Of a stretch of 64,000 nucleotides of DNA, positions 2,049 to 63,100 are shown piece after piece. Every line of letters begins with the position of its first letter. Position 1 is the first letter of the stretch. A model generated the notes under the pieces. It was not told where the DNA came from. It saw nothing but the letters and a program-made list of their open reading frames with translations, and did no database searches. Source of the stretch: a virus; the IMG/VR virus record IMGVR_UViG_3300048597_000624, positions 21,225 through 85,224 of that record; one strand, 5' to 3'. The translations under genes were made by a program, and so were the position numbers.

Positions 2049-2888
2049 TTATTGCATCGGGACAGCGCTCGACTCCAAGAGCGCCGCCGTATTGTTCAAA
2101 AAGTTCGACCACGTCTCAGGAGACCCGAGAACCCCAGCCATTTGCGCGGGCGTTGCCACCTCCTTAAGCCGCACAAAGAACGACGACCATCGCGCAAATG
2201 GTTTCGGACCAATGGCGATTTCGCATGCCCTTTCGAGTTCGATAAACGGATCGGCTTCGAGCGGGACTTGTCCGCTGGCAATGAGGTTCGCGAGTTCTCG
2301 AAACGATCCGGCCAAGGCCTGACCCTCCCCGCCCTTGTTGGAGCTTTGCACTTCAGCGATCGACTTGAGTAAGAACTCATCGACGTTGAACTGCTGTGGT
2401 GGGCCAACGAAATCTTGAGCGGTGACGTCGGGCTTGGGTGCTTCGACAATGACAAATTCCCACACGTGCTGCGCTACCAAACCGCCGTTGCCCGCGACAC
2501 TCACGTGCAGTTGATAAATCCCCGGCTGGCCAGCAAAGTTCGCGACTCGCCCGTCCGGCGAAACGTCAAGCCCATTGACCTGCGGCAGTACGCTCCAGGC
2601 GAAGCTCGTTACCGTACCGGTAGTTTCAGCAATGAAGTAAAGCTTGTTGCCAACAATGCCATCTGCCGGGCCTTTTAGGCGAACAGACAGTGGCGACTGC
2701 GATTCATTGACCACCCGCACGATCTGACTTTGCTCTGGCACGTGCAAGGTAGGCGGAGAGACGGGCAGCGGCTCAACCTCAACAGCCACTGCGGAGCGAG
2801 GCATATCATCAACTGATTGACCGTCTAACGAGCCAGCGCCAAGCAGGACGGCTGCTGCTAAGGCTGAAATGGTTTGATGCATGGTCAT
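2049..2888 (-). CDS. Secreted PKD-like domain protein
   Basis: 279 residues with an N-terminal signal sequence (ISALAAAVLLGAGSLDG). Residues of about 70-150 form an Ig/PKD-like beta domain, seen in the pattern GNKLYFIAETTGTVTSFAW ... GLDVSPDGRVANFAGQPG. The C-terminal half is helical. The start ATG overlaps the stop of the cytochrome peroxidase gene (ATGA), so the two are translationally coupled. PKD-like domains usually serve extracellular adhesion; that role here is inference. Confidence 0.65.
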   Translation of the reverse strand: MTMHQTISALAAAVLLGAGSLDGQSVDDMPRSAVAVEVEPLPVSPPTLHVPEQSQIVRVVNESQSPLSVRLKGPADGIVGNKLYFIAETTGTVTSFAWSVLPQVNGLDVSPDGRVANFAGQPGIYQLHVSVAGNGGLVAQHVWEFVIVEAPKPDVTAQDFVGPPQQFNVDEFLLKSIAEVQSSNKGGEGQALAGSFRELANLIASGQVPLEADPFIELERACEIAIGPKPFARWSSFFVRLKEVATPAQMAGVLGSPETWSNFLNNTAALLESSAVPMQ

Positions 2889-3889
2889 CGTGGCAATCCC
2901 GGAGCCGTGATGCGTGGGTAAGTTGGTGAGGACAATCCTTCACGAAGGAAGGCTTCAAGCTGGGCCTGTTCCTCATCATCCAGGCCGAGCAGTCCAATGC
3001 GGGGATCTTGGTTTCGATCGACGCGCCCCCCGATCGACCATCCCGCGTTGTATCCATCAATTACTGCTGCCAGATCGAGAATCGTTCCCGCGTGCATGTA
3101 AGGAGGTGTTCGGCTAATTTCGCGTAGTGTCGGTGTTTTTGCCGCTCGAATGTCTGCTGCCGTTGCTTGGCCTCGGAGAAATCCGCCGCGAAGGCGATCG
3201 CCGGTGTTCGAGAAGAATGCAATGCCCGTGTTGTGAAATTTGCCGTCGGTCATAAGCGGGTAGGTGTGGCACTCATTGCACTTGAGCGTGATGCCAGCAC
3301 GGTTGGGACGCAGGCCCATGAACAGCTGGAAGCCTGCCTCCGCCTGGGAGCTTAAGGCTCGCGTGTAGCCTGCCATGCGTTTGTCGACCGGGGCGTCGAA
3401 CGAGAGTACCGAGTTTTCAAAGCTGGCGATGGCATGACCAAGACGGGCGGCATTGCACGGCTGGCCATAGGCCGCCAGGAACAAAGATCGATAGCCGCGG
3501 ATCGAGTTGACCCGGTTCACCACCTGCTGCACTGAGCCGTTGGCCATTTCGACGGGATTGACCAAGGGGCCAAGAGATTGCTGCGCGTGGCCGAGCGTGT
3601 TTCCGTCCCAGAATTGATTGGGAAGGTAGGTCGCTCCGATCACTGTGGGGGCATTGCGGGTGCCGCGCAGGCCGCGTACGCCGATGGATACGCTCTGCGG
3701 TTCCGCAAAGCCATGGTCCGCGCGATGGCAGGTGGCGCAACTAACCGTGCCGTCGATTGAGAGGCGCGGGTCGTAAAACAGCTTGCGCCCCAATTCCACG
3801 CGCTCGGGGGTGACGGCGACGTTCAGCGGGGCGCCGGGCGTTGGCGGCTGAGCGAGAGCCAGTGCCAGGAATGCGGCGAAGAAATTCAT
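2885..3889 (-). CDS. Di-heme cytochrome c peroxidase (CcpA/MauG family)
   Basis: 334 residues with a short signal-like N-terminus (MNFFAAFLALALAQ). Two CxxCH heme c sites are present: CATCH at residues 51-55 and CNECH at 204-208. The family's conserved stretches are visible: LGRKLFYDPRLS, NAPTVIGA, FWDGN, and RTPPYMHAG near the C-terminus, whose Met is a usual axial ligand. Known enzymes reduce peroxide to water in the periplasm with electrons from small c-type cytochromes; MauG relatives oxidise proteins. It overlaps both neighbours by ATGA, so it is an integral part of this operon, which is striking for a phage-like locus. Length is normal for the family. Confidence 0.9.
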   Translation of the reverse strand: MNFFAAFLALALAQPPTPGAPLNVAVTPERVELGRKLFYDPRLSIDGTVSCATCHRADHGFAEPQSVSIGVRGLRGTRNAPTVIGATYLPNQFWDGNTLGHAQQSLGPLVNPVEMANGSVQQVVNRVNSIRGYRSLFLAAYGQPCNAARLGHAIASFENSVLSFDAPVDKRMAGYTRALSSQAEAGFQLFMGLRPNRAGITLKCNECHTYPLMTDGKFHNTGIAFFSNTGDRLRGGFLRGQATAADIRAAKTPTLREISRTPPYMHAGTILDLAAVIDGYNAGWSIGGRVDRNQDPRIGLLGLDDEEQAQLEAFLREGLSSPTYPRITAPGLPR

Positions 3890-4650
3890 GCGGATGGCTC
3901 CGGATCGTCGCGACGCAAGACCTTCCAGTCGCGAGACTCATCCAAAACCCCCTGCACAATTGGCAGCAGCGAGCTGCCAGGCCGGGACATTGATATCAGT
4001 AGGTTGAGGATTCTGCCTTTTAACTCGTCGTCTTGAATCCAACGACCGGTGGTGTCTCGCGGCATCGGCACCGCTCGCGGCACTACTGCCGGACCTTCGT
4101 CATCCGGCGCGGGCGGTAAGTTGCCCCCCTCTTCCGCGTCGCAGATGAACAAATGCGGAAACGCACTGTAGAGCACAAACACCATCACACCAGGCTTGAG
4201 CCGCCGCAGGTCGCTGCAGAACTGATCCACGTCCTCAATCGCGTCGTGCTCGAATGAATATCGAAGCTCTTCAATCTCCACGTCTGTCACTTGACCAACA
4301 AACCGTTGATTGGCATCGCTAAAGATCGCGCGATACCAGACCACCACGCGGCCGCATTCACTGGTTCCGATGCGAAGCTCCGCTTCTGGCTGCACTCGGC
4401 CGCGATGCTCATCGACAACGACGGTTGACTCTTCTTGTAACCAAGCCAACAGACGTTCCGCTGGCGACAGGATCTCACGTTGTTGCGGCGTATAGGTGCT
4501 CTCATCCGTCGCGACAGGCTGAGCAGCGCGGCCGGCAATTGCCGGAGAGGTCGAGAGATCCCAAGCGGCGACAGTCAGACTCACGACCAATAACGTTAGA
4601 CCAACGCCCACTTTCCACCTGCTGCTTAAAAACTCGGGCACGATTTTCAC
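3886..4650 (-). CDS. Membrane-anchored hypothetical protein
   Basis: 254 residues from a GTG at 4650 with AAAGGAG 7 bases upstream; the open frame extends further but that part overlaps the protease gene and has no start with a ribosome site. One membrane segment lies near residues 14-30 (VGVGLTLLVVSLTVAAW). The rest is soluble and acidic with Pro-rich stretches (NLPPAPDDEGPAVVPRAV). It overlaps the peroxidase gene by ATGA, which suggests co-translation and perhaps a periplasmic partner role. Family not recognised. Confidence 0.65.
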   Translation of the reverse strand: MKIVPEFLSSRWKVGVGLTLLVVSLTVAAWDLSTSPAIAGRAAQPVATDESTYTPQQREILSPAERLLAWLQEESTVVVDEHRGRVQPEAELRIGTSECGRVVVWYRAIFSDANQRFVGQVTDVEIEELRYSFEHDAIEDVDQFCSDLRRLKPGVMVFVLYSAFPHLFICDAEEGGNLPPAPDDEGPAVVPRAVPMPRDTTGRWIQDDELKGRILNLLISMSRPGSSLLPIVQGVLDESRDWKVLRRDDPEPSA

Positions 4651-4679
4651 TGCTTCACTCCTTTGTGAGTCATCAACAA

Positions 4680-5762
4680 TCAAAAATTGAAAGCCAGGTC
4701 GAACTGCCCGGCCGGCGAGTAAATCTTGATGGGCCCCAATTCCAGCAGCAGCGCGACGTCGCCAGGGTCCGCGGCGCCACCGTCCGGAGCTTCCGGCGGA
4801 ACAACCGAAGCCAGTAGCTTGTCGACCTTGAGCAATCCGCGGCCAACCGCGCGACCGTCGTTGGGGTCGACAATGTCGATCGCCCCGTCGTCCAGGTGCT
4901 TGCGGAGCTCGTCCATCGTCCGCAGCGGAGTGATTCCCCCGCCGAGCCGCTTGTGTCGATCGAGCAGCAGCGCGGTGCAGCCGGCGACCATCGGGCAAGC
5001 CATGCTCGTCCCGCTGATCGTTGCATGCCCGCCATTGAGCCAGAGCGATGTGACGTTCGTGCCTGGGCCGGCGATGTCGACTTCCGGTCCGCGCGACGAG
5101 TAAGGCGCGGGCTGTCCGTCCTCGCCATAGGCCGCGACCGCGATCGTGTCGAGATTCGGGTGTCCCACAGGCTGGTGGTAGCGTGCCGGGAAGTTCACGT
5201 CGTAATCCCGGCCGGTATTTCCCGCCGCGCAGATGACGAAGACTCCTCGCGAGACGGCATATTCGATGGCTGCCGCAATCTCCGGATCTGGGTATGGAGA
5301 ACCAAAGCTTGCGCTAATGACGTGAGCGCCTTGCGCCACCGCCCAATAAATGGCCGCAGCGATCCAGCGATTCTGTCCGGTCCCTCGATGGAGCACCTTG
5401 CCGATCAACAATTCGCACTCGGGAGCGAACCCGATAATTGGGCCTTTGTCTTGTCGAGCCCCAACGATGCCCGCGCAGTGCGTGCCGTGGCCGTCCTGAT
5501 GATCGTCCCAGAACTCGTCGGAATCGCCATAGGGCGTGAAGTTGCGGCCCGCAAGGATCGCATCAAACAGATCCCCTTCGTTCGCGTGGATTCGATCAAC
5601 CCCCGTGTCGAGCACCGCGACCCGGATGCCTGCCCCGGTCGCTCGCGCGAGCGCATCCGGTAAGCCGGCCTGCCCCCAGTCCAAGCGGTCCTTGAGCTCA
5701 TTGGCCAAGAACACCGTTTGGACTTCGTACGGCGGCAGGTGGCTTTCGCGGCGATTCGACAT
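4680..5762 (-). CDS. Subtilisin-like serine protease (S8)
   Basis: 360 residues. The catalytic triad is complete: Asp52 in VAVLDTGVD, His92 in DGHGTHCAG and Ser253 in GTSMACPMVAG; Asn181 in AAGN is the oxyanion residue. No signal peptide is obvious, and the N-terminal 40 residues are too short for a classical propeptide. A C-terminal tail of about 60 residues follows the catalytic domain. It could process virion or host proteins; because many planctomycetes have protein-rich envelopes, a role in host lysis or entry is an inference worth testing. Confidence 0.9.
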   Translation of the reverse strand: MSNRRESHLPPYEVQTVFLANELKDRLDWGQAGLPDALARATGAGIRVAVLDTGVDRIHANEGDLFDAILAGRNFTPYGDSDEFWDDHQDGHGTHCAGIVGARQDKGPIIGFAPECELLIGKVLHRGTGQNRWIAAAIYWAVAQGAHVISASFGSPYPDPEIAAAIEYAVSRGVFVICAAGNTGRDYDVNFPARYHQPVGHPNLDTIAVAAYGEDGQPAPYSSRGPEVDIAGPGTNVTSLWLNGGHATISGTSMACPMVAGCTALLLDRHKRLGGGITPLRTMDELRKHLDDGAIDIVDPNDGRAVGRGLLKVDKLLASVVPPEAPDGGAADPGDVALLLELGPIKIYSPAGQFDLAFNF

Positions 5763-24344: not shown

Positions 24345-24524
24345 TTAGGATGTTTTGCGGTTCTTCCGCTTCACTGTGCTCGCGTTGACCTTGGCTGCCT
24401 GCGCCTTGGAAGCCTTGGACTTGCGGCGGTACGTCTCTTTCTCGCTGGGCTTGGTCATTACCGCATCGCCCATGAAGCCTGGTCCACGGATCGGCGTATC
24501 GAAGATCTCAGGTAGATCGGCCAT
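24345..24524 (-). CDS. Small basic protein
   Basis: 59 residues starting at the ATG at 24524, which overlaps the portal fusion stop as TGATG. The start is MADLPEIFDTPIRGPGFMGD; the C-terminal half is highly basic (YRRKSKASKAQAAKVN), so it probably binds nucleic acid or an acidic protein partner. The tight coupling to the portal gene makes it very likely real. No family recognised. Confidence 0.6.
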   Translation of the reverse strand: MADLPEIFDTPIRGPGFMGDAVMTKPSEKETYRRKSKASKAQAAKVNASTVKRKNRKTS

Positions 24525-27500
24525 CAGACCAGCCCTTTATCGCGCCAATACTGGAAGCACTTGGGGTAGTTCGCTTCGGCCTTTTCTCGATCGAGAAAAA
24601 GTAGCCGTCCAAACTCTGCCCAGCCTTCTTGGGCGTCGGTTTTAGCATACTTCGACAAGGGAGTGCTGGGCAAGTTAATCTCTTCCTGCCAATTTTTCTT
24701 CCACTCAGGCGTGTAATCGAAGTCGTGGCCGCCGATGGCATGAGCCAATTCGTGGGCATGCGTGCCGGCCGCGGTGATGTCCGAACCGGGATCTGCAGTT
24801 CCGACGCGCTCCCCTGTGTCTTCGCCTCCGTCCAGGCAAAGCGTTCCGTTGAGATCCTCATGCGTCGGCTTGCCTGTCGAACGGTAAATCGGGTAGGCAA
24901 AGAATCCCATCACGGTTGCTCCGCGCGGGATACGCGAACCGCGGCGGCGGGCCTCGGCTGTGACGCCGCTAACGCTCGGCTTCCACTGGACGCTGGAAAC
25001 GAACCGGTCGACACGTCGCAAGCACTCGCCATTCATGCCGTCGATCGCGCGCGAGATTGCCGCCCGGTAGGCTTGCTGCTTGTCCTTGGAGAGCCGCTTA
25101 AGCTGCTCCGGCATGTCTTTGAGAAGCTTGGCGCGAACCGACTCGCGCGCGGCGTGTAATTCGCTTTCCGCAGAATCGTCGGCGGTGGATTCCTTCGCGG
25201 CAGCCGCCGGCGTCGAACTCGATTCGCTGCTGCTGCTACCGCTGCCGGCGCTCTCCTTCTCGACGAACTTCCCTTCATCGTCGCGCGGATGCTTGGACTC
25301 GAAATCAAGGCCCTTTTGCGTCCCGCTGTTGGCCTGCGGATCGTCGTCGAACAGTCGCGTTTGACGAGCATACTTCCGCAAGAATCGGCGCGTGCGGGCA
25401 AACGGCACCGACTCGATTGCGTCATCCCGCGCCGGAACATACTTGCCGGCCTGATGAGCCAGATCGACCGCTTCCGATAAAACTTCGTTCGACCAGCGCG
25501 CGGGCGGCTCGATTCGGCCTTCGCCGAGCATGTCCCACACTCGTTCGCCGAGATCTTCGGAGTATCCTTCCGCGTGGTTACCCAGGCCGAGTTCCGGCAG
25601 CGAGGCGGCAACCGACGTCGCCTTGACGTCGAACCCAGGAATTGCCGTGTAGTCCTTGCCGGCGTTCGACAGCCGCGCGAAGTCGTTGCGGGTGAGCCCC
25701 ATGATCTCGCGCAACTGCATCTTGGCGTGCTCGCGGTCCGTGATGGCTTGCCGCTTCTCTTCCCAGACGAAGTCGACAGCATCGCGCAGAGTAGCGGCAT
25801 CGAGGTTGTGCTCTTCGGCCAATGCGGAGATTGCTTGGCCCAATCGGCCTTCGGACGTTCGCTTGGGCTTGGGCTGTTTTGCCGGTTGCTGCTGCGACTG
25901 GGGCTGAGACTTGGGCTCACCACCTGGTGGCAGTCCGGCGGCCGACTCGAGTTCGCGGACCGACGCCTCTTGCTTGGGCAGCAGTTCGTCCGGTGGGTTC
26001 TGTCCGGCTTGTCGCCATGCGCGGCGAATCGCCTCTTTCGACTGCTCCAGTTCCGCTCGCGCGCGACGGGCGGCGTCGGCCTTGGCGGGATCTGGCTGCG
26101 TTGGTGCATCGATTTCGGTTTCAACAGGGGATTCCATCTGCTCGCCCGTCTCGGGCTGCTCCTGCGGCGTCGGCTCCTCATCGCCAACCATGTCGATGTC
26201 ATCCCAGGCGTCGGGATAGCCTTCGTGGTCGTCGTCCTCCCGGTGCGGAGTGGCATGACCCGGGGCGTCCACAATGCCGACGCGATGCCCGCGGTTGACC
26301 AGCGTATTGAGGTGGCCCTCTAAATCCGCCTGCTTGATGACCGCATGCTTCCCGTTGCCCAATTCGAGGTGCTCATTGAGTCGAGCGGCGCCAGCACCGA
26401 AGGCGTGATAGTCACCGTTTTCGTTGACCAGCAAAATCGTTCCCGCGGGGGCCATCTCGAGGGCGCGATCGTGGGCCTCCCGCAACACGCTGTCGCGATG
26501 ATCTTCGTGGGCGTCTTGCTTGCGGGCTCGCCGTGCGCGAGATTCGTCCGATTCGTCGCGCAGGTCGTCAACGTCTTCGCCCTCCAGGCCCGGGCAGCCG
26601 GCGTGAATGTGGCCATCTTCGCCGACGAGGGCAGGGGCGCCGCCGACGGTTTTCCACTGGGCACCCTTGGGCTCTGGATCGGGCTCAGCGCGGTAGACGC
26701 GGCGACCTTCTTTGTTTCGACGATGTTTGAGCTTTTCGGGCAAATCTTCGGCAAGCTTCTCGATTTGCTGTCGGAGATCGGGTGGTGTTGTCGCGTCGTC
26801 GAGCTTGGCAAGGCTATCGAGGCTTAGCCACCAGTGATAGTCGTGCTCCTTGGGGTTGGTGTCGACGTTTGACGACGAACCGGCGGCCACTTGCGCCCGA
26901 TACATGACCCCAGATTTGCCGTTGCGAGTTTCAAACGGAACCTCCCCTGGAAGAAACTCGATCGATAACCCCGTTTCCTCTTCCACTTCGCGCGCGGCGG
27001 CCTTGCGCGGATCCTCGCCGTCACGACGATGGCCGGCAGGGCACTCCCATTCGCCCGTGCGGGTGCTGGCTTCCGATCGGCGGACCAGCAAAACCTTGCC
27101 GTCGTGGATGATGGCTGTGGCGACGATGTCCGGATCGTCATCCTCCACGATGATCGACTCGGCATCGTCACGCTTGGCATACTGCCGCGGCGTCGCTCCA
27201 CCTGCGGGCCCGTACATGCGAAGCTGCAATCCGCCATCGGCGGCGGCTGCCTTCTGCTTGTCGCCTTCAGGCCCATCGTCATCCGGTTTATCCGGATCAT
27301 CATCGGGGTCGTCGTCCACCTCGGGTCCGTCTTCGCCCGGTCCCTCATCATCGTCGCCGCCGGCCAGTGGATTCTGCGGAAACGCCACGGTCGAGCGAGA
27401 GCCAGGCAGGTTGTCGCCCGGCTGGCCCGGCTGCCCCGGTTGTTGGCCCGGCATGCCCGGCAATCCCAGCCCCATTCCGGCGCCCTGCGAGAACGTGGGG

Positions 27501-28978
27501 TTCTGTAGCGCCTCTTCGCCGTCGGTCGGGATCGACGAACCAATCATGCCCGCGACTTCAGCCGGCTTGAGCTTCAACCCCATCTCCCAAGCCATCTGGT
27601 ACGCCTGGAGCTTCTTCTCCACCTCGGGCGATTCGGTGTCGATTACGAATCGCACATAGACCCGCTGCGAGCCGGGGAAGTTGAACAGCTTGAGCGGCTC
27701 GACAAAGTCCGTCGTTAGCGACTCTTCGAGGTTCGTCGCGTCATAGCGAATTATTTGATTAAACGTTTCGAGGTGCAGATCCGCCACGCCACTGCCCAGG
27801 CCGGTCGCTTCGGACTCACTCGACAGGATTTGGCCCAGGATGTATCGCTTGATCTGGTGGCCAAACAGGTCATGCACGATCGACTTGAGCGACTCGACGC
27901 CGGCCGCGTTGGGCTCGATGCGATCGATTCCGTACTGCGATTTCTCTTCGCCCTCGGGGATCGGCACCAGAATGTTATTGTTCTGGTGGGACTCCATTGC
28001 CGCCGCTTCGGCCTTTTCTTTCCCCTCGGGGTTCCCCAGCGGGTAGTACCAGATTGTGAAGCCTTGTCCCACGCGCTCGAGATATTCGACCAGCATCGCG
28101 AGGGCTTCTTGTTTCTGATACCACGCCCAGTAGATGCGCGAGCGCACGCCGACGCCATGAATCGCACCGGCGTCAATTGGCGATTCGTAGGCCGCGTCTT
28201 CAACCATGTGCTTGTGCAGCACGATCGCGCGACGTTCCCAATCCTCCAGGAAATACCCCATGCCCTGATCGGTCGCGACCACCTTGTGCGGTCCGACCAG
28301 GTCGCCGGGCTTGAAGTTTCCCGCCACGCGGATGCCGATTTGGTCTGGATCCCAGCCCTCTTCGTTCACTCCGGGGATATCTTGGCGAAAGAGCAGCTTG
28401 TCGCCGTTGATCGGGCGCCACTTGCGAACGATCAGCCGTTGCTGGCCGTGGACGTAGTCCCAGTTGAACAGGTTGTTGATCGCGGATCGTCCGAACCAAA
28501 CCGCTTCCTGCAGCGAGCGGCGATACTCCACGAACCGCGAGGTCCGGCGAATGATCGCGGTGAGGTCGTCGACGAGCTTCTTTTGCAGCGGGGAATTCTC
28601 GTCTTCCGCCTCGAGGTGCCAATTGAGCAGCGCCACGCAACGCTGGCGAGCCTCCAGGCACTCCATCACCGTGCAATCGTTGCGCATGTACCGCGCGTTG
28701 TCTTTCGAGTGGCGGTAGGCTTCGTCCGGATTGCGGTAGACCTTGGCGAGGTTGGAAATCAAACCCTGGAACGTCATCACGTGCGGCATCACCGGCATGC
28801 CGAAGCCGGGAGGGGCTCCCTTGATGCCGCGCGCAGGATCGTGCGACTTCACGTTGGGCGGGCTGGCCTGGCCGTTTGCGTGGCCATTGGTGGACGGCTT
28901 GGGCGGGCGCGGCGTGCGGGCAACCAGCGGGCGGGCGTTGTCGGGCAGGTTGCCGCGAGAGGGGAGGGGAGCGGCCAT
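24524..28978 (-). CDS. Portal protein fused to Nudix and zincin domains
   Basis: 1484 residues, one uninterrupted frame. Residues about 70-500 form a phage portal domain of the Mu gp29/DUF935 kind (VMECLEARQRCVALLNWHLE; a QIKRYILGQILSSE segment). After Gly/Pro and Asp-rich linkers, a complete Nudix box lies at 649-671 (GHRRDGEDPRKAAAREVEEE, then TGL), fitting Gx5Ex7REUxEExGU. A long acidic/Gln-rich middle follows. The C-terminus carries a zincin motif HELAH at 1409-1413 with a likely distal Glu in EGWAEFGRL. Portals are usually 400-550 residues, so this is a threefold extended fusion. The extra enzymes could be packaged and act on capsid proteins or be delivered into the host; that is inference. 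Confidence 0.85.
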   Translation of the reverse strand: MAAPLPSRGNLPDNARPLVARTPRPPKPSTNGHANGQASPPNVKSHDPARGIKGAPPGFGMPVMPHVMTFQGLISNLAKVYRNPDEAYRHSKDNARYMRNDCTVMECLEARQRCVALLNWHLEAEDENSPLQKKLVDDLTAIIRRTSRFVEYRRSLQEAVWFGRSAINNLFNWDYVHGQQRLIVRKWRPINGDKLLFRQDIPGVNEEGWDPDQIGIRVAGNFKPGDLVGPHKVVATDQGMGYFLEDWERRAIVLHKHMVEDAAYESPIDAGAIHGVGVRSRIYWAWYQKQEALAMLVEYLERVGQGFTIWYYPLGNPEGKEKAEAAAMESHQNNNILVPIPEGEEKSQYGIDRIEPNAAGVESLKSIVHDLFGHQIKRYILGQILSSESEATGLGSGVADLHLETFNQIIRYDATNLEESLTTDFVEPLKLFNFPGSQRVYVRFVIDTESPEVEKKLQAYQMAWEMGLKLKPAEVAGMIGSSIPTDGEEALQNPTFSQGAGMGLGLPGMPGQQPGQPGQPGDNLPGSRSTVAFPQNPLAGGDDDEGPGEDGPEVDDDPDDDPDKPDDDGPEGDKQKAAAADGGLQLRMYGPAGGATPRQYAKRDDAESIIVEDDDPDIVATAIIHDGKVLLVRRSEASTRTGEWECPAGHRRDGEDPRKAAAREVEEETGLSIEFLPGEVPFETRNGKSGVMYRAQVAAGSSSNVDTNPKEHDYHWWLSLDSLAKLDDATTPPDLRQQIEKLAEDLPEKLKHRRNKEGRRVYRAEPDPEPKGAQWKTVGGAPALVGEDGHIHAGCPGLEGEDVDDLRDESDESRARRARKQDAHEDHRDSVLREAHDRALEMAPAGTILLVNENGDYHAFGAGAARLNEHLELGNGKHAVIKQADLEGHLNTLVNRGHRVGIVDAPGHATPHREDDDHEGYPDAWDDIDMVGDEEPTPQEQPETGEQMESPVETEIDAPTQPDPAKADAARRARAELEQSKEAIRRAWRQAGQNPPDELLPKQEASVRELESAAGLPPGGEPKSQPQSQQQPAKQPKPKRTSEGRLGQAISALAEEHNLDAATLRDAVDFVWEEKRQAITDREHAKMQLREIMGLTRNDFARLSNAGKDYTAIPGFDVKATSVAASLPELGLGNHAEGYSEDLGERVWDMLGEGRIEPPARWSNEVLSEAVDLAHQAGKYVPARDDAIESVPFARTRRFLRKYARQTRLFDDDPQANSGTQKGLDFESKHPRDDEGKFVEKESAGSGSSSSESSSTPAAAAKESTADDSAESELHAARESVRAKLLKDMPEQLKRLSKDKQQAYRAAISRAIDGMNGECLRRVDRFVSSVQWKPSVSGVTAEARRRGSRIPRGATVMGFFAYPIYRSTGKPTHEDLNGTLCLDGGEDTGERVGTADPGSDITAAGTHAHELAHAIGGHDFDYTPEWKKNWQEEINLPSTPLSKYAKTDAQEGWAEFGRLLFLDREKAEANYPKCFQYWRDKGLV

Positions 28979-53269: not shown

Positions 53270-55042
53270 TTAGGCGGTTTGCAGCGGCGAATCGCAGTTC
53301 GCTCGTACCATGGCCTCTGCTAGTTGGGGTGGAACGCTGTTGCCAAGCCGGGCGACTTGGTTCGACTTGCTGCCAGTCAACAGGTAGGTGTCGGGGAATC
53401 CTTGGGCTCGCGCGAGTTCGCGCGGCGAGAGCATGCGCAGGCCGATGTCGGCAATGACACAAGGCCCAATATCCGGAACGTCGATGGCTATTGCCGGCTC
53501 GTGCCGGCCTGGGGCGACTTCAACCGTAACCAGGCCAAAGCGATGCTTGCCCGTTTGCGTGTGAAGTGGTTCATCGAGGGGCTGACCAATGGCCGTCCCG
53601 AAGTATTTGACGAGGAATGCGTACACCAGCCCGAACTTATTGCCTTGGCTGGTGATGGTTCCCAACGGCTCGCCCATCCCGTTCCATTGCTTCTCGCCGT
53701 GGTTGAAGCGGGCAAGGTAGGCGGAGGCAATGCCGAGAGCATGAGCCGCTCCCGCCGGCCTCGCTGCACCTGCGCCGGATGTCACAGTCGGCATCGGCTG
53801 TTCGACGCTAGCGCCGTTTGAATCGCCGCGGAATTTGACGAGATTGGCAGCCACAAGCCCGTGATGATCGACCGCGGTAACCGTTCCAATGGGCTTGTCG
53901 ATCGAATGCCCCACAACTCCGCCGTAGAACTTGGCCAGTGTGGCGGCCACCAGACCGAATCGATTCTGCGTGTCGAGCGTTGCAAATCCGCGATCAAGCG
54001 AATGGCAGCGAGACTCCCCGGCTTTTTGGCCGTGGTACTTACTCAGCACCGGAGCAACAACGCCAAACCCATGATGCCCGGTAACCGTCGAGAGCGGCTG
54101 ATCGATCGATTGGCCGCGAAAGTGGTCACCACCGTGATCGCAACGAACAATGAACGGTTGCGGATCGTTGAGCACGTACCGCCACAGGCCCATGGCAATC
54201 CGTCGCATGGTCTTGTCAGCCAGCGGGCGTTGACGATCGAAAATACTGGGACATGGCAGGGACCAGTCGATGCACTCCGCAGCCGTTCGCCAAGGCTTGA
54301 GCCGTGAGAACAACGGTTGATCGTCCAGCTTGGACGGATCCGCGTGCGATGCCTCTGGCCATTCGATCGGCCGACCGTCGCAGCGGGCAACTAAGAACAG
54401 TCGCCGGCGGTGGGTTGGGGCGCCGTAGTCTGCCGCGTCGAGCGTTTTGTAGGCGACTACATACCCCAGGTTTCGTAGTCGTCCCGTCCAGCGGCGGAAA
54501 GTCAAACCGCGGCGATTGGGATCCGGACGGTGTTCGTCTGTCTGAATGAGCCGAGACGCATTGCAGCGCGGGCAGCGTCGATGAACTCGAGCCAGCTTGG
54601 CCTGGCCCTCCGTCCCGCGCCAGTCGCAGGAGCGGCAGCGATAGACCGGCACAAGCGGGCCCCAGTCGGCGAACTCGCGCACGTTTTCGAGAACGATCAC
54701 ACGAGGCCGGACCTGCTCAGCCCAGCGACAGATAACCCACGCCAGTGATCGAATTTTCTTGCTGACCGGCTTCGAGCCCTTCGCCCGTGAAAAGTGCCGG
54801 CAGTCCGGCGATGCCCACAGCAGGTCAACCTTTCGGCGGCCAATGAGCGATCGCAGGTTCGCGCGCCAGACGTCCTCCAGCACGTGCCGAGTGTCGGGAT
54901 GGTTGGCCTCGTGCATCGCCAAGGCTGGGCCATCGTGGTTGACGGCAATGTCCGGCGATCGACCGAGCGCCCACGCAATCCCGAGCGATGCGCCACCGCC
55001 GCCGGCGAAGCTGTCGATGATGAGTCCTTGCTTCCTGCTCAT
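53270..55042 (-). CDS. C5-cytosine DNA methyltransferase
   Basis: 590 residues from the ATG at 55042, coupled to recD2-C by ATGA. Motif I is DSFAGGGGASLG (Asp10), motif IV is SPDCRHFS with catalytic Cys81, motif VI is VLENVREF (Glu119), motif VIII RRRLFLVARCD, and the end GNSVPPQLAEAM is motif X. A Cys4 insert (CRSCDW, CPRC) near 135-160 probably binds zinc. The target-recognition region holds about five repeats of a 'QPL.TVT..H..GLV...L.KY.G' pattern. No restriction partner is visible. Confidence 0.9.
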   Translation of the reverse strand: MSRKQGLIIDSFAGGGGASLGIAWALGRSPDIAVNHDGPALAMHEANHPDTRHVLEDVWRANLRSLIGRRKVDLLWASPDCRHFSRAKGSKPVSKKIRSLAWVICRWAEQVRPRVIVLENVREFADWGPLVPVYRCRSCDWRGTEGQAKLARVHRRCPRCNASRLIQTDEHRPDPNRRGLTFRRWTGRLRNLGYVVAYKTLDAADYGAPTHRRRLFLVARCDGRPIEWPEASHADPSKLDDQPLFSRLKPWRTAAECIDWSLPCPSIFDRQRPLADKTMRRIAMGLWRYVLNDPQPFIVRCDHGGDHFRGQSIDQPLSTVTGHHGFGVVAPVLSKYHGQKAGESRCHSLDRGFATLDTQNRFGLVAATLAKFYGGVVGHSIDKPIGTVTAVDHHGLVAANLVKFRGDSNGASVEQPMPTVTSGAGAARPAGAAHALGIASAYLARFNHGEKQWNGMGEPLGTITSQGNKFGLVYAFLVKYFGTAIGQPLDEPLHTQTGKHRFGLVTVEVAPGRHEPAIAIDVPDIGPCVIADIGLRMLSPRELARAQGFPDTYLLTGSKSNQVARLGNSVPPQLAEAMVRANCDSPLQTA

Positions 55043-56421
55043 GCCGCCATCCTCAATTGCTCCGCCAAAAACGTCTTCCGCGACTCCAACGCACACCGCT
55101 GGCAGTCCTGATCGATCGTGGATTTCTTCCCGATCGTGAAGCACAACTGCTCGGTCCGGCTGATGGCCGTATAGATCAACTCGCGGCTCGCCACGAACCG
55201 GGCCCCGCCGTAGTCGTCCGATACGTAAATGACGATGGGCCAGCCGCAACCCTGCGATTTGTGCGTGGTAATCGCATAGGCCAGGTCAAAGTTGCTGATT
55301 TCGTCCCGCTCCGCCCGAATCGTCCGCCGCGGCGAATCCAGTTCGACGTAGATCGCTCCGGCATCAAGCTGGCGAACTACCCCGAGCTCGCCATTGGCAA
55401 CGAAGATTTCATCGCCGTCGACTTGCTCCCCCTCTGCCTCAAGCTTCTCCTGCTCGATGCGCAGGTACTCTTCGTCGATGCAGGTAAACCAGCCGTTCGA
55501 GGTGCAGAGAACCTTGTCCCCCTCGCGGAGCCGTGCCGCCGGCCCAGCCGCGACCGTCTTGCCGTTCGGGTTCAGCAGCGCCTGCAGCACGCGGTTCATC
55601 GCCGGCTGCGACAGTTCCGACTTGTCGACCTTGATGGCCGTCAGAACTTGCAGGTCGCGCCGGACGTCAAAATGCGACGGCAGGCCCGACAGTAATCGTT
55701 CAATGTGCCGGATGGTCCACTTGGGCCGCGTGCATTCCACGTGGCGGAGGTTTTCGCCGGTAGCCAGGTTGATTGCCTCACTGGGCGTGAATGGGACGCC
55801 CGCGCGAATCTGCTGGCACGCTTTGACGATGCGGCCCGCGTTGCGGCGAACCTCGGTCAGTTCCTCGCACGGGATGCCGGCCAGTCGCATATCGCGCAGG
55901 ACAGCGCCATGCTCGACCGGCGGGAGTTGCCCCTCGTCACCCAGGCAGAGCACGAGGGTGCCCGGCTTGATGGCTGAGAAGAGCGAATAGCCCAGCGTGG
56001 TGCCGAGCATCGAAAGTTCGTCGATCACCAGCACCTTGAACCGCAACGGGTTGCCGGCGTGATGCTTGAACCCCCAGCCCTTTTTGTCGTGGCCGTTTCG
56101 CGTGACTCGCAATGCCCGATGGATTGTGGTCCCTTCGAGCGAATAGAGGCCTTGCGACTGCATCGCTTCCGTGGTGCGGATGGCAGCCTTGCCCGTTGGC
56201 GCCACGATGCCGATTTCGTGCGAATAGAACTTTTTGGTGCACGCCTTGAGCAGGGCGGACATGGTGTAGGTTTTGCCCGTGCCAGGTCCGCCGGTGAGGA
56301 TGGCGAGACGGGAGCGCAAAAGGCGATCGAGGGCGTCCGATTGGTGTTTGGACAGGCTTTCGATGTCGAAGGTTTTGGGCCAGGTGGAGTGCAACTCATT
56401 GCTCCTCGGTTGATCGTTCAC
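55039..56421 (-). CDS. recD2: RecD2-like helicase, C-terminal half
   Basis: 460 residues from a GTG at 56421; a TTG at 56394 with AGGAG 7 bases upstream is an equally good start. Motif I GGPGTGKT at 44-51, Walker B VLVIDELSM, GDEGQLPPV, and the C-terminal TTHKSQG and YTAISR motifs are all present: an SF1B 5'-3' helicase. The family's usual N-terminal OB/HhH region is missing here but is encoded as a separate gene at 58599-59630. The CRISPR array and Cas12-like gene lie between the halves. Confidence 0.9.
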   Translation of the reverse strand: MNDQPRSNELHSTWPKTFDIESLSKHQSDALDRLLRSRLAILTGGPGTGKTYTMSALLKACTKKFYSHEIGIVAPTGKAAIRTTEAMQSQGLYSLEGTTIHRALRVTRNGHDKKGWGFKHHAGNPLRFKVLVIDELSMLGTTLGYSLFSAIKPGTLVLCLGDEGQLPPVEHGAVLRDMRLAGIPCEELTEVRRNAGRIVKACQQIRAGVPFTPSEAINLATGENLRHVECTRPKWTIRHIERLLSGLPSHFDVRRDLQVLTAIKVDKSELSQPAMNRVLQALLNPNGKTVAAGPAARLREGDKVLCTSNGWFTCIDEEYLRIEQEKLEAEGEQVDGDEIFVANGELGVVRQLDAGAIYVELDSPRRTIRAERDEISNFDLAYAITTHKSQGCGWPIVIYVSDDYGGARFVASRELIYTAISRTEQLCFTIGKKSTIDQDCQRCALESRKTFLAEQLRMAA

Positions 56422-56461
56422 TTATGCGATTACAAGTCTTCAGTAGGTCGATGCGTTCCAT
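56396..56461 (-). CDS. Possible 21-codon leader ORF before recD2-C
   Basis: ATG at 56461 with GAGGAGCGGAG just upstream, reading MERIDLLKTCNRISERSTEE then Q and stop. It overlaps the start region of recD2-C in another frame, and its TGA lies next to the TTG start candidate. It could be a leader peptide that couples translation through the end of the array. Length alone makes this uncertain. Confidence 0.3.
   Translation of the reverse strand: MERIDLLKTCNRISERSTEEQ
56401..56429 (-). repeat. Inverted CRISPR-repeat-like element 1 (over recD2-C start)
   Basis: Minus strand TCGCATAAGTGAACGATC followed by AACCGAGGAGC. It resembles the plus-strand array repeat end (TTCGCATGTGAAAAC, AACCGAAGG) with small insertions, but on the opposite strand. 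It contains the Shine-Dalgarno AGGAG of the TTG start candidate of recD2-C. Confidence 0.45.
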
Positions 56462-56465
56462 CTCC

Positions 56466-56496
56466 GCTCCTCGGTTGGTAGCTTTCACACGCGAAA
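56466..56496 (-). repeat. Inverted CRISPR-repeat-like element 2 (anti-repeat candidate)
   Basis: Minus strand TTTCGCGTGTGAAAGCTACC followed by AACCGAGGAGC. A minus-strand array repeat could pair with it over TTTCACATGCGAAA (one G.U) and CGGTTG, with a bulge between. This is the layout of a tracrRNA anti-repeat, but the repeat core is near-palindromic, so part of the match may be incidental. Confidence 0.5.
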
Positions 56497-56522
56497 CCTC
56501 AACAACTCTTTGCCACTCTGGA

Positions 56523-57110
56523 CCTCAGTAACTTCCACACGTGAAGCATCCCGGTAGCAAACAAACGCCCGACATCCCTCAGTAAATTCCACATGCAGGA
56601 TGGTCGCGAGCTGGTCAGGCAAGGCGTGCTCCTCCTCCCTCAGATCGCACCTCAGTAAATTCCATATGTGAAAACAACGTAAGGCGCCGACGTCCTCGAC
56701 ATACTCATGCTCGCGCTCTCGCCCTCAGTAACTTCCGCATGTGAAAACAACCGAAGGCGATCAGCACGCGAGAGATTGCCAGTTTCCTTGACACCCTCAG
56801 TAACGTTCGCATGTGAAAACAACCGAAGGACGGTGGTCGCCATGGCTTTTCTCCCAGTCCAGTAACCCCTCAGTAACGTTCGCATGTGAAAACAACCGAA
56901 GGGTCGGCGTCTGACCTTGGCATCCGCGTAATCAGATTCCCTCAGTAAATTTCGCATGTGAAAACAACCGAAGGGCAGATGTCCACCGCAGAAAAACTCG
57001 TCCCTCAGTCTCATTCGCATGTGAAAACAACCGAAGGCGGACTTTGACTCAATCGTTCCAAAACTCGGGGCACGACCTCAGTCTCTTTCGCATGTGAAAA
57101 CAACCGAAGG
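56523..57110. CRISPR. CRISPR array, about nine repeats
   Basis: Nine 35-nt units start CCTCAG and (for the good ones) end GTGAAAACAACCGAAGG. Starts: 56523 and 56577 (degenerate), 56650, 56723, 56795, 56868, 56940, 57003, 57076. Spacers are unique, 37-38 nt (one 28 nt at 56975-57002, and 19 nt between the first two). Degeneracy grows toward low coordinates, so the young end is next to the effector gene. Positions 8-14 vary; the last 21 nt are identical from 56723 on. No leader with an obvious promoter is visible. No spacer was seen to match the window. Confidence 0.9.
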
Positions 57111-57239
57111 GGCGGCTGCACAAGTGCAAATATCCCTTCCGCTTAAACCGCGTTCCGCGAGCGTTCGTTGCCGGCAAGCGTACAACGCCTTTCCCGCGCT
57201 CGGCCTGGAGGTGGCCTGTTTGTTCCAACTCATATCGCA
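57111..57239. other. Array-to-effector gap (possible leader)
   Basis: 129 bases between the effector stop and the first repeat. On the minus strand AAAGGAG overlaps the effector end, and two overlapping open frames run from here into the first repeats (from 57243 and from 57231). They may be remnants or chance; no clear promoter is seen. If the array is read in operon direction this is its leader. Confidence 0.4.
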
Positions 57240-58505
57240 TCACTCCTTTACGTCCTGTGCGAGCGGTTCCGGCGATTCGCTCGCCACCTCGCCGCTCGCA
57301 ACGATCAGTTCAATTCCGCAGTCCTCGCAAGCCTTGGCTAAAGCCAGCCGCAAACGAGTCCAATCCAACACGCAATACAATTTGTTTGAATCGTCGTAAC
57401 GAATCGCTGCCATCCGTCGTCGCTGGGCGTACTTCGCCAACTGCATCGCGCACTGCTGAAACCAGCTATTGATGCGGCGATGATGCTTGGTGACCATTGC
57501 CGCACGTCGCGACTGAAAAGACGCAACTGGTCGCTGCTCGGCCGTTGCGTCTTCGCTCAGTCGGTGCAGCCGCTGCCCATGCTCAGCTTGAGCGCGGCGA
57601 ATGTGATCTGCGTTCAATACCCAAATCTGCTCGTCTTTCTCATTCAGTGCCCGCCAGAGCGATTCGGGACCAGTGGAAACCCGCAGAACGTCCGACGCGG
57701 CAGCCCTTTCAACTCGCGGAAGCCAGCAGGCAATTTTCAACATGACTTCGCTGGATGACTTTTGGCCTCCGCTGTCGCGTCCGCTATCGCCGGCGCGGTG
57801 GGTGTTGGTTCCGGACGACACGCGATAAATCGACACTTCGCCAAGTTCGGCCTCCCCCTTAACCAGCTTGTCAAAGGCGGCAATCTGCCGGCGGTAGCGG
57901 TGCCCTCCCCGCAACCGAAGCGACCATCGTTCCGTGCCGAACGGCAGCGACACAATCGCTTCTCCACCTTCGCCGCGAGAGAGCTTCACGGTGGCAGCGG
58001 GGACGGGATAAGGCACTGGATACTTAAAGTTTTGAATTGACCGATCGCAGGTCCAAAGAACCTTATATCGATCCGATCGGTATTTTCTCTGTGTTTGCTG
58101 TTCAAGACTGGCAACTGTGCTGCTGGACAGGTCCGGAAATCGCGTTCTTGCTTCGGGGTATAAGTACACCCGCTCCATGGCTGGCATCTTTTCCTGGCTC
58201 GGCACTCTCTGGGTATCGCGAGCCCACAATTGGGACATCATCCAATTCGATGCCGCCGTTGTCTGCGACCACGCGGTTCGCAGTGCAGCCCGGAATTCCT
58301 CCCAGCTACGATCGACAGGACCGGAAACCGCAAACGTCACAGCGCGAAGCACGTAGCGATTACGCCAGCACTTGTCGCAAAACACGGAGTCGCCTTGCCG
58401 CTTCCAGCCGCTTGGAACCCTCGCCGTTCCGCGAGCCGTGACTTTCGTGTCGCGACCAGCGCCACACGAGCAGCACAGGACGGTTTGCTTCGTTGCTGTC
58501 GTCAT
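57240..58505 (-). CDS. TnpB/Cas12-like (type V-U-like) protein, RuvC degenerate
   Basis: 421 residues. The N-terminus has a zinc ribbon (Cys11/Cys14 and Cys43/Cys46), then a helical REC-like region with TAWSQTTAASNWMMSQLWAR, and a WED-like part (VSLPFGTERWSLRLRGGHRY). The RuvC-like C-terminus can be aligned with TnpB: VLRVSTG at 273-279 in place of the IGIDLG block (Ser277 for Asp), a bridge-helix-like HHRRINSWFQQCAMQLAKYA, IRYDDSN at 368-374 in place of the VVEDL block (Asp371 for Glu), and GIELIVA at 397-403, after which the usual zinc ribbon and last Asp are missing. Its stop is 130 bases from the CRISPR array. It is probably an RNA-guided binder without cleavage; a divergent TnpB relative unrelated to the array is the alternative. 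Confidence 0.7.
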   Translation of the reverse strand: MTTATKQTVLCCSCGAGRDTKVTARGTARVPSGWKRQGDSVFCDKCWRNRYVLRAVTFAVSGPVDRSWEEFRAALRTAWSQTTAASNWMMSQLWARDTQRVPSQEKMPAMERVYLYPEARTRFPDLSSSTVASLEQQTQRKYRSDRYKVLWTCDRSIQNFKYPVPYPVPAATVKLSRGEGGEAIVSLPFGTERWSLRLRGGHRYRRQIAAFDKLVKGEAELGEVSIYRVSSGTNTHRAGDSGRDSGGQKSSSEVMLKIACWLPRVERAAASDVLRVSTGPESLWRALNEKDEQIWVLNADHIRRAQAEHGQRLHRLSEDATAEQRPVASFQSRRAAMVTKHHRRINSWFQQCAMQLAKYAQRRRMAAIRYDDSNKLYCVLDWTRLRLALAKACEDCGIELIVASGEVASESPEPLAQDVKE

Positions 58506-58615
58506 TGCATGATCCGTTTTGAACTGCGCCGAAACTCGTTCACGTAACCGCCCGACCGCTCCACTTCCCGCTTCCGCCTCAGCACCTCATCCCCATCTTC
58601 AGATTGCAGCAACAC
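58502..58615 (-). CDS. 37-codon bridging ORF between recD2-N and Cas12-like gene
   Basis: GTG at 58615 with GGAGGAG 6 bases upstream, inside the end of recD2-N; the stop overlaps the Cas12-like start as ATGA. The peptide is basic (VLRRKREVERSGGYVNEFRR). The strong ribosome site and exact coupling suggest it is translated and couples the two genes, or serves as a small partner protein. Confidence 0.5.
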   Translation of the reverse strand: MLLQSEDGDEVLRRKREVERSGGYVNEFRRSSKRIMQ

Positions 58616-59630
58616 CAAGTTCTCCTCCGACCGCTCGCCTATTCGGATCGTCGAGGGCCAAAATCGGAGCACCCAGATAGGTCGCGTCCGATCGAATACC
58701 TTGCTCTCGCAGGCACGCTTTGTTGCACTCGACATCCATCAACTCCCTTAAATGTCCCGCGAGCCACACCTCGTGATTCGCCTTCTCTCCCTCGGCCAGC
58801 CAAGCAACTCCGGCCTCATCCTCAAACCGCGCGAGCCAGCCCGAGCGAATGCCGAGCTTGATCGCCTTGGCCGCATCCGGCACGGTCCCGCCGATCATCT
58901 CGCCCAGTTTGCGGACCAGATCGCTTTCGCGTAGCCAAGTGCTGTTGCTGTCTTCCCGCAACAAATGCCAAATGCAGATCGTCTGCCGCTTCAAGGCATC
59001 CTGCGGCAGCCCCAGGTCGCAATACAGCGAGTCGCAGCGGGCGAATCCGCAGCTTGCAAACCCTTCGACCAGCAAGCACAGCGGATCGCGTTTGATTCGC
59101 TGAGGTGCCAGGATTCCGTACTTCCGGATGACGTCGTCGACCAGCCGGCCATGGAAGCCACGGCCGTGGAACAACGTTGCCAATTCCTGCCGGACGTCCT
59201 CGGTGAGCTTCATGGCCTGGAGCGATTGAGAAGCCGCCCGGGCGCGATCGCGCGTCAATCCCTTGATGGTCTCCGCGACGAGTTCCCAATTGCCGCGCAG
59301 TTCCTTGACCGCATCGGTGCCGTAAACGTCAAACAGCCGGTTGGCGATTGCGGGGCCGATGTTGGTTGCGAACTTGCTGAGGTAGGTCACCACGCCCACG
59401 CGAGTGTGGGGCTCTTGCAGCTTGTATTGCTCGAAGACGAACTGATCCTTCCCCTTGCGGACCTTCCACTTGCCGTAGAACCGATAGGTCATGCGCGGCA
59501 CGAACGATGCAACTGGGGCATCGCCGCACACGATCTTGCCGTCCACAAGTTCGGCAACGATGAAATCCGAATCTTCCGATCGGAAGAAGATCGCTTTCAC
59601 GGTGCCGGTGAGTTCTTCGGAGTCAGCCAT
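58599..59630 (-). CDS. recD2: RecD2 N-terminal half (OB fold and HhH region)
   Basis: 343 residues matching the N-terminal part of RecD2: opening LTGTVKAIFFRSEDSDFIVA, then RVGVVTYLSKFATNIGPAIA with helix-hairpin-helix repeats, and the IKRDPLCLLVEGFASCGFAR segment. It stops after ILALDDPNRRAVGGELGVAA and I, just where the full-length protein would continue with LSKHQSDA of the other half. No helicase motif is present. It should act together with the 55039-56421 half as a split enzyme. Confidence 0.85.
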   Translation of the reverse strand: MADSEELTGTVKAIFFRSEDSDFIVAELVDGKIVCGDAPVASFVPRMTYRFYGKWKVRKGKDQFVFEQYKLQEPHTRVGVVTYLSKFATNIGPAIANRLFDVYGTDAVKELRGNWELVAETIKGLTRDRARAASQSLQAMKLTEDVRQELATLFHGRGFHGRLVDDVIRKYGILAPQRIKRDPLCLLVEGFASCGFARCDSLYCDLGLPQDALKRQTICIWHLLREDSNSTWLRESDLVRKLGEMIGGTVPDAAKAIKLGIRSGWLARFEDEAGVAWLAEGEKANHEVWLAGHLRELMDVECNKACLREQGIRSDATYLGAPILALDDPNRRAVGGELGVAAI

Positions 59631-61902: not shown

Positions 61903-62916
61903 TCACGACCACAAGTAGCCGCGGTACATGCGGTGATACGCCCGCGTGACGTCGATATCGCTCGCGACGTATTCGCCAACCTTTTCCGGACTGGTCGCAA
62001 ACAATTCCGCGACCTGGCTGCCGTCCACGTCCCCAGCGGGAACCGGAATCCCCATCACGCGAGCGAGATCCTTGAGCCGGCCCGGCCGCTCGCCGCCCAT
62101 GCTGCCGCGACCGTTGAATCTCGCGTGGTACAAATCCAGCACGTCGTTGCCCCAGGGCTTCAGGTCGAGTTGCTTGGTCGAGGGAACGTCCAGCAGCACC
62201 GATCGCGTGAAAAGCACCGGCAGGTCGAACGACAAACAGTTGAAGCCGACCAGCCGATGCGACAGGGCATGCGACCAGAACGTTTCGAGGATTTGCTCCT
62301 CGGTGACACCCTTCAGACCAACCACCATCGCATGGGCCGGGCTGTCGCCGACGGCAATCCCCATCGCCACGATTCGACAGAACTCGGGGGTGGTGCTGAG
62401 GAGCTTGCGGCGCTCGTCGCCGGCCGAGAGGGCTTTGTCGCGGGCCGCTTTCGCTGACTGGATTTCTTTGATGACTCCGTCGCGGTTTTTGCCCGCCGCT
62501 TCTGTTTTGATGCACTCTTGGTAGTAGTAGTCATCGGAGAACACGCCTTGCAGTTTGGCTTTGACATCAGCAACCGTTCCGGCAACTACTTCCCCTGGAA
62601 TGGGGCAATCGAGAAATGTTCGCAATTCCACCGGCGGCACCGGCTCGAGCCCGAACAACTCCAACCGGCTTTCATCCGGGATCGTCTCCAAGTCGAAGTA
62701 GCATGGCTCGTCCGCACTAGCTCGACGCGCAGCCGCCGCCCTGGGCCTGCGCGATGTCGTGGTTGTCTTCGCCGGCGCCTTGGGCGGGACTGCCCTGGCC
62801 GGCGTGGCAGCCGGATTGCCCGCGATCTTTGTTGCGACCGCGCCGTCGTCGGAATCCATGTCGACGTCGAGGCTGTCGAGTGAATAGTCTTCAGTTTTTG
62901 CTGGTGCTGTCTTCAC
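61903..62916 (-). CDS. DnaQ-like 3'-5' exonuclease
   Basis: 337 residues from a GTG at 62916 with GGGAG 8 bases upstream; it overlaps csrA by 26 bases. The first 70 residues are Ala/Pro-rich and disordered. The exonuclease motifs follow: Exo I YFDLETIPD (D75, E77), Exo II LVGFNCLSFDLPVLFTRS, Exo III YVASDIDVTRAYHRMY. It resembles the DEDDy type (Tyr before the last Asp). No polymerase domain is attached, so it may work with the host or an unseen phage polymerase. Confidence 0.8.
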   Translation of the reverse strand: MKTAPAKTEDYSLDSLDVDMDSDDGAVATKIAGNPAATPARAVPPKAPAKTTTTSRRPRAAAARRASADEPCYFDLETIPDESRLELFGLEPVPPVELRTFLDCPIPGEVVAGTVADVKAKLQGVFSDDYYYQECIKTEAAGKNRDGVIKEIQSAKAARDKALSAGDERRKLLSTTPEFCRIVAMGIAVGDSPAHAMVVGLKGVTEEQILETFWSHALSHRLVGFNCLSFDLPVLFTRSVLLDVPSTKQLDLKPWGNDVLDLYHARFNGRGSMGGERPGRLKDLARVMGIPVPAGDVDGSQVAELFATSPEKVGEYVASDIDVTRAYHRMYRGYLWS

Positions 62917-63100
62917 TGCTTTGCTCCCGCTTGCTGCCGTTTCGCTTGATCGCCTCGTACACCTCGTCCCGATGGACCGGCACTTCCTGCGGTGCCTCGA
63001 TCCCCAGCCGAACCTTGTCGCCCCGAATCTCGACAACCACGATGCGGATGTCGTCGCCGATACGAATCCCCTCGTTGCGCTCTCTGCTCAAAACCAACAT
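62891..63100 (-). CDS. csrA: CsrA family translational regulator
   Basis: 69 residues. The family start MLVLSRERNEGIRIGDDIRI and DKVRLGIEAPQEVPVHRDEV are intact, including the RNA-contact residues of the first strand and the VHRxE motif; a Ser/Lys tail follows. CsrA binds GGA in mRNA leaders and represses or stabilises them. Phage-borne copies are uncommon. A GGA is also central in the repeated GGGAGGAGTGA ribosome-site cassette of this genome, a natural target, though that link is inference. Confidence 0.95.
   Translation of the reverse strand: MLVLSRERNEGIRIGDDIRIVVVEIRGDKVRLGIEAPQEVPVHRDEVYEAIKRNGSKREQSSEDSTSKN

Follow-up and report, generated by a model that had tools for sequence, protein, structure and literature searches.

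An array of clustered regularly interspaced short palindromic repeats (CRISPR) and an adjoining gene for a 421-amino-acid (aa) Cas12f-like protein lie on the minus strand of a 64,000-nucleotide (nt) stretch of viral DNA, hereafter the window (positions 21,225 to 85,224 of the IMG/VR virus record IMGVR_UViG_3300048597_000624). Together with three relatives, this protein would form a rare family, carried by phages, of truncated and nuclease-dead Cas12f-like effectors. These probably, though by no means certainly, bind phage genes with the help of their own arrays and silence them, whether the genes are those of rivals or of the carrier itself. The family has lost the catalytic residues as well as the end of the nuclease domain. 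An earlier note on this DNA had suggested that the protein binds rather than cuts and serves as a repressor or interference factor, and this suggestion is strengthened by exact matches between spacers and phage genes in two of the relatives.

The effector family and its RuvC domain

The open reading frame (ORF) exists as the earlier note had claimed, and the kinship with Cas12/TnpB proposed there, for which a hidden Markov model search had been recommended, was borne out by PADLOC, whose Cas12f (E = 8.9e-13) and Cas12u3 (E = 4.9e-9) profiles match residues 54-227 of the window protein. No convincing match was obtained in Pfam, NCBIfam, or PHROGs, and NCBIfam 2026 returned no Cas match. When the family was aligned with Cas12f (planctomycete and PDB sequences) using hhalign, the match spanned both the N-lobe and RuvC (probability 89.7, E = 1.8e-6), and a Foldseek search with the second of two low-confidence AlphaFold models of the window protein returned Cas12f structures for all nine top matches. 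Judging from its sequence, the window protein is homologous to Cas12f in the N-lobe and RuvC domain. The family and Cas12f nevertheless fell into separate groups in a tree with long branches and a small sample (100/100 and 100/99). The N-terminal zinc ribbon (C-x2-C...C-x2-C) that had been predicted is present and conserved in the relatives. The remark that the protein would be smaller than most described Cas12 effectors needs softening: it is indeed small, but Cas12f proteins in the PDB often measure 415-540 aa, and one nuclease-deactivated Cas12f has only 365 aa (PDB 9n9c).

The three relatives were obtained in different ways. A tblastn search across 397 genomes from a single planctomycete order yielded L121, a frameshifted and truncated pseudogene on a planctomycete chromosome (39-40% identical), at which no array is visible (L121:172-1181). 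A search with a small profile gave L125, a 5-kb planctomycete contig encoding an intact 462-aa protein, in which the Cas12f and Cas12u3 profile matches extend up to the RuvC part, next to a mini-array. Finally, a DNA pattern derived from a motif common to the window, L121, and L125 led to L126 (also G1027), a 48.9-kb IMG/VR phage with terminase, replication initiator, and resolvase genes, whose 426-aa effector is 44% identical to the window protein from end to end (E = 5e-111). The ORF immediately upstream of the L126 effector gene contains 18-bp tandem repeats (L126:1-584). No effector homologue was found by tblastn in INPHARED, PLSDB, and 392 Planctomycetota genomes, and a profile search of 343 further Planctomycetota genomes gave no additional family member. 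Scans with eight-residue patterns revealed no relatives either, whether viral and genome contigs were scanned with the window protein alone or viral contigs with the recD2 halves (see below) and the terminase, and a zinc-ribbon DNA pattern retrieved only unrelated zinc-ribbon and other non-Cas proteins. The exact window repeat occurs in no other IMG/VR contig. Also encountered were planctomycete Cas12f proteins, two of them (L083 and L085) with their active-site motifs intact and one (L084/L100) with a broken frame; repeat-like arrays are visible near L085 and L084.

All three predictions made about the nuclease domain held. Profile-profile alignment with Cas12f places Ser277 opposite the catalytic RuvC-I Asp, a residue that is absent from all four family members, being replaced by Ser in the window, Arg in L126 and L121, and Cys/Arg in L125. 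At the RuvC-II Glu position, motif alignment puts Asp (Asp371 in the window) in the three complete proteins. These three chains (window, L126, and L125) stop soon after the helix and strand that follow RuvC-II and lack the C-terminal zinc finger and RuvC-III that would come next, and neither a CxxC...CxxC nor a DxNAAxN motif occurs downstream of the window ORF in any frame. A complete DED triad with RuvC-III and the C-terminal zinc finger was found in no member of the family, whose RuvC, as far as its residues tell, is unable to cut. Since residue loss, truncation, and array association recur in independent relatives, this inactivity appears to be a family trait and not a one-off.

Differences between the window and L126 genes at the three codon positions amount to 0.42/0.37/0.61, and those in residues 299-421 alone to 0.38/0.38/0.55, again with the third position in excess. 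This pattern indicates that the effector gene is under protein-level constraint and that its truncated end has been maintained as protein.

Array, leader, and spacer matches

The array that the earlier note had placed beside the effector gene comprises seven clear repeats, spaced 63-73 nt apart, and lies downstream of the gene on the same strand, with direct repeats of constant length separating unique spacers of similar length. Repeats 1 to 5 agree in their first 24 nt, and a short internal block is variable. Most single window repeats fold into a hairpin of about 8 bp with the variable block in an internal loop; z-scores for hairpin folding were -2.0 to -3.5 for most of them, -5.5 for L126, and -2.3 for L125. 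Six identical 35-nt repeats stand directly downstream of the effector gene in L126. Although the repeat sequences of the window, L126, and L125 differ, all form hairpins, and in the cas direction all have G[A/C]GG as their last bases ahead of the spacer.

The window and L126 also share the order cas gene-leader-array on one strand. Within the stretch from the cas stop codon to the first repeat, about 105 nt are conserved in the two, with a local alignment score of 57 against a maximum of 38 in 1000 shuffled pairs, and the gaps in this alignment do not preserve a reading frame. Folding of the leader was no better than that of shuffled sequences. The same was true of pairing between leader and repeat, which gives no evidence of a trans-activating CRISPR RNA (tracrRNA). 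A candidate anti-repeat at 56400-56500 was dropped because the palindromic repeat confounds orientation and decay of repeats explains the elements better. Rfam returned no group I/II intron or other family. No Cas1 match exceeded the cut-off in either phage record (G000 and G1027), so spacers would presumably be acquired in trans.

Two spacers have known matches, both in genes on their own contigs. Spacer 5 of L126, one of five repeat-flanked spacers and the only one of them with a self-match, is identical over 39/39 nt to the phage's own DNA methyltransferase gene (PHROG 67), 2.7 kb away, at a site 40-78 nt past the start codon (codons about 14-26). In L125, a repeat-flanked spacer is identical to a D5-type primase gene over 36/36 nt. 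The primase ORF ends exactly where the first repeat of the mini-array starts (L125:1057-1175), as does its profile match, and the sequence at this junction resembles the primase gene of Listeria phage PSA (29/33). The likeliest cause of this ending is that the contig is chimeric and was joined at another spacer derived from the primase, in which case the primase may be that of another phage. Read in the cas direction, both matched spacers are complementary to the target mRNA. An exact self-match should be tolerable only for a non-cutting effector; it could also be a self copy escaping through a wrong protospacer-adjacent motif (PAM).

These features are consistent with a stand-alone phage CRISPR unit made of a small non-cutting effector, a leader, and its own array. 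The array would probably be transcribed on the minus strand, starting from the leader at its cas side, and the effector would hold the guide RNA to which each hairpin repeat gives rise. The resulting complex would bind matching DNA without cleavage and could thereby block transcription, perhaps also replication, of phage genes belonging to related competitors, to the carrier, or to both. RNA processing, RNA binding, DNA binding, and repression, like the targets of the window spacers, are what we infer for this unit.

Weighing the proposed function

Several observations weigh against such a silencing role. The window spacers matched nothing in their own 85-kb record, INPHARED, PLSDB, or 12 planctomycete/phage records, and the 5′ flanks of the two matched sites, CAAGA and AATTC, share no PAM; with these two sites only, a 5′-TTN PAM would fit AATTC and not CAAGA. 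The L125 contig is possibly chimeric, as noted above. AlphaFold confidence for the window protein was too low to judge the fold, both alone (predicted local distance difference test score [pLDDT] of 35) and with L126 (pLDDT of 41, the model used for Foldseek). Moreover, the decayed tail of the window array suggests that this copy may no longer be updated. Such decay, together with the pseudogene L121, could also mean that the whole unit is a Cas12f-CRISPR relic with lost function on its way out. We consider this very unlikely, given that three intact ORFs at 30-46% identity share a common end point and diverge with a bias toward third positions, that the L126 repeats are identical in 6/6 copies, and that the leader is conserved.

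If silencing is accepted, its object has to be weighed. Guides aimed mainly at the carrier's own methyltransferase and primase genes would act as a natural CRISPR interference (CRISPRi) that times or damps their expression. The two spacers for which a match is known are 100% identical to genes on their own contigs, the L126 site lies at a good roadblock position just behind the start codon, and a cutting effector would be suicidal, whereas this family has lost its catalytic residues throughout. However, such a match concerns only one in five L126 spacers and none in the window, the L125 primase perhaps belongs to another phage, and the L126 site shows no T-rich PAM such as those of Cas12f/Cas12m and could be an escaping self copy. 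Self-regulation as the main use of the guides is thus a tentative proposal that we do not expect to hold, and we are equally doubtful that a phage-restricted truncated Cas12f-like lineage evolved programmable CRISPRi on its own genes, timing those for replication and DNA modification. Pairing of the guide with target mRNA instead of DNA would agree with the orientation of the spacers in 2/2 cases, which chance could also produce (P = 0.25); with Cas12f, TnpB, and Cas12m relatives all acting on DNA, we find this antisense mode unlikely. A dead effector might otherwise recruit a transposase or sigma factor to its target, as in V-K transposons or dCas12f-sigma systems, and 9n9c, which likewise ends before the C-terminal zinc finger, was among the best fold matches. 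The scanned neighboring genes, among which no transposase, TniQ, or sigma factor was matched and no gene recurs between the window, L126, and L125, make a recruiter highly improbable. Least credible to us is a decoy that soaks up host guide RNAs or targets and so blocks a host type V nuclease, as proposed for a phage Cas9 with inactive RuvC (PMC12669027): a decoy would have no use for its own multi-spacer array and conserved leader, and the matched spacers point to phage genes. Silencing of phage genes by binding, of rivals or self, remains the reading that we prefer.

Genomic setting and comparison with known systems

The 85,224-base record from which the window was taken encodes a terminase, a primase, and a Mu-type portal fused to NUDIX, the latter as one 1484-aa ORF with a portal domain and a NUDIX hydrolase domain (window 24524-28978). 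Its CsrA (window 62891-63100) is closest to CsrA of Pirellulales and other Planctomycetota, which suggests that the host is probably a planctomycete; an association of CsrA with some TldR loci has also been described (PMC13418256). The Cas12f-like gene and its array lie exactly between the two halves of a recD2-like helicase gene, each of which has good coding signal and matches the single-chain phage family phrog_4412; the effector-array cassette probably landed in this gene. An intein at the split was rejected, since each half forms an ORF of its own, with stop codons, and the gene between them is unrelated. The relatives sit in other places. Farther away, di-haem cytochrome c peroxidase and subtilase genes (window 2885-5762) form unusual phage cargo and are possibly host genes or a host-derived flank.

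Features of the effector-array locus (window positions unless L126 is named)
Feature	Position	Strand	Basis
Nuclease-dead, C-terminally truncated Cas12f-like effector gene (predicted), 421 aa	57240..58505	(-)	PADLOC Cas12f 8.9e-13, relatives, alignments
N-terminal zinc ribbon (Cys11, Cys14, Cys43, Cys46)	58368..58475	(-)	Kept in all four family members
Ser277 codon, at the place of the RuvC-I catalytic Asp	57675..57677	(-)	Family alignment, profile-profile alignment
Asp371 codon, at the place of the RuvC-II catalytic Glu	57393..57395	(-)	Family alignment; placement by motif
129-nt stretch from cas stop to first repeat; candidate leader or guide-scaffold RNA	57111..57239	(-)	Conservation with L126
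CRISPR array of 7 repeats (36-37 nt; CCTTCGGTTGTTTTCACATGCGAANNNNACTGAGG) and 6 spacers (26-37 nt)	56649..57110	(-)	Hairpin folding of repeats
Decayed array tail with about four half-repeats and stretches resembling spacers	56402..56648	(-)	
recD2-like helicase, N-terminal half (OB + HHH; TIGR01448 positions 1-292), upstream cassette edge	58599..59630	(-)	
recD2-like helicase, C-terminal half (TIGR01448 positions 311-711), downstream cassette edge	55039..56421	(-)	
L126 spacer 5 / methyltransferase identical pair	L126:2471-2509 and L126:5245-5283		39/39

Among known systems, Cas12f (type V-F, formerly V-U3/Cas14) is the closest by sequence, being the best profile match for the N-lobe and, in L125, also for the RuvC part, and it shares the similar size and the adjoining array. 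The window family differs in its extra N-terminal zinc ribbon, in the loss of the DED triad, C-terminal zinc finger, and RuvC-III, in forming a clade apart from the sampled Cas12f proteins, and in that no anti-repeat was found in the window and L126 leaders. The nuclease-deactivated Cas12f 9n9c is truncated at about the same place, and we take it to have a sigma-factor partner; beside the window effector no sigma-factor gene was matched, and the protein carries the zinc ribbon and accompanies a phage CRISPR array.

Cas12m (type V-M) resembles the family in having a RuvC unable to cut and in the proposed silencing by binding; RNA-guided binding of DNA without cleavage has been shown for Cas12m, which silences in this way (PMC10442227, PMC11013384), and for phage TldR (PMC13418256). 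Cas12m2 works with CRISPR RNA alone, a 5′-TTN PAM, and an HDD active site (PMC10442227). In contrast, the window protein matches only Cas12f and Cas12u3 in PADLOC and no Cas12m profile, is smaller than the 596-aa Cas12m2 by about 175 aa, and belongs to a phage-borne family with a C-terminal truncation and not substitutions only. TldRs (TnpB-like nuclease-dead repressors) are likewise phage-encoded, RuvC-inactivated members of the TnpB superfamily and share the RNA-guided repression proposed for the window family; phage-borne TldR represses host flagellin (PMC13418256). They have a single overlapping guide RNA, whereas the window and L126 have multi-spacer arrays, and the spacers of the relatives match phage genes and not host flagellin. 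Viral CRISPR mini-arrays in inter-virus conflict also carry spacers against viral genes (PMC11656645), but these borrow host Cas proteins and host repeats, and the window unit has its own effector.

RuvC inactivation has occurred several times in Cas12, with subtypes V-O and V-P mentioned as inactivated (PMC12669027). Weak RuvC motifs have also been described in type V proteins that phages carry (PMC12607003). Compared with Cas12f, 9n9c, Cas12m, TldR, and the viral mini-arrays, the family would be a new variant, as phage-associated, array-bearing, truncated dead Cas12f-like effectors. Guides that match a carrier's own gene raise the testable question of whether non-cutting CRISPR serves phage self-regulation or rival exclusion, and the proteins are compact natural DNA-binding candidates for programmable silencing. 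In the literature searched, dead effectors come from plasmids, hosts, transposons, and single-guide prophage TldRs, whereas this family keeps its own array inside phages. The best reading is that it belongs to neither Cas12m nor TldR, though it would work in a similar way.
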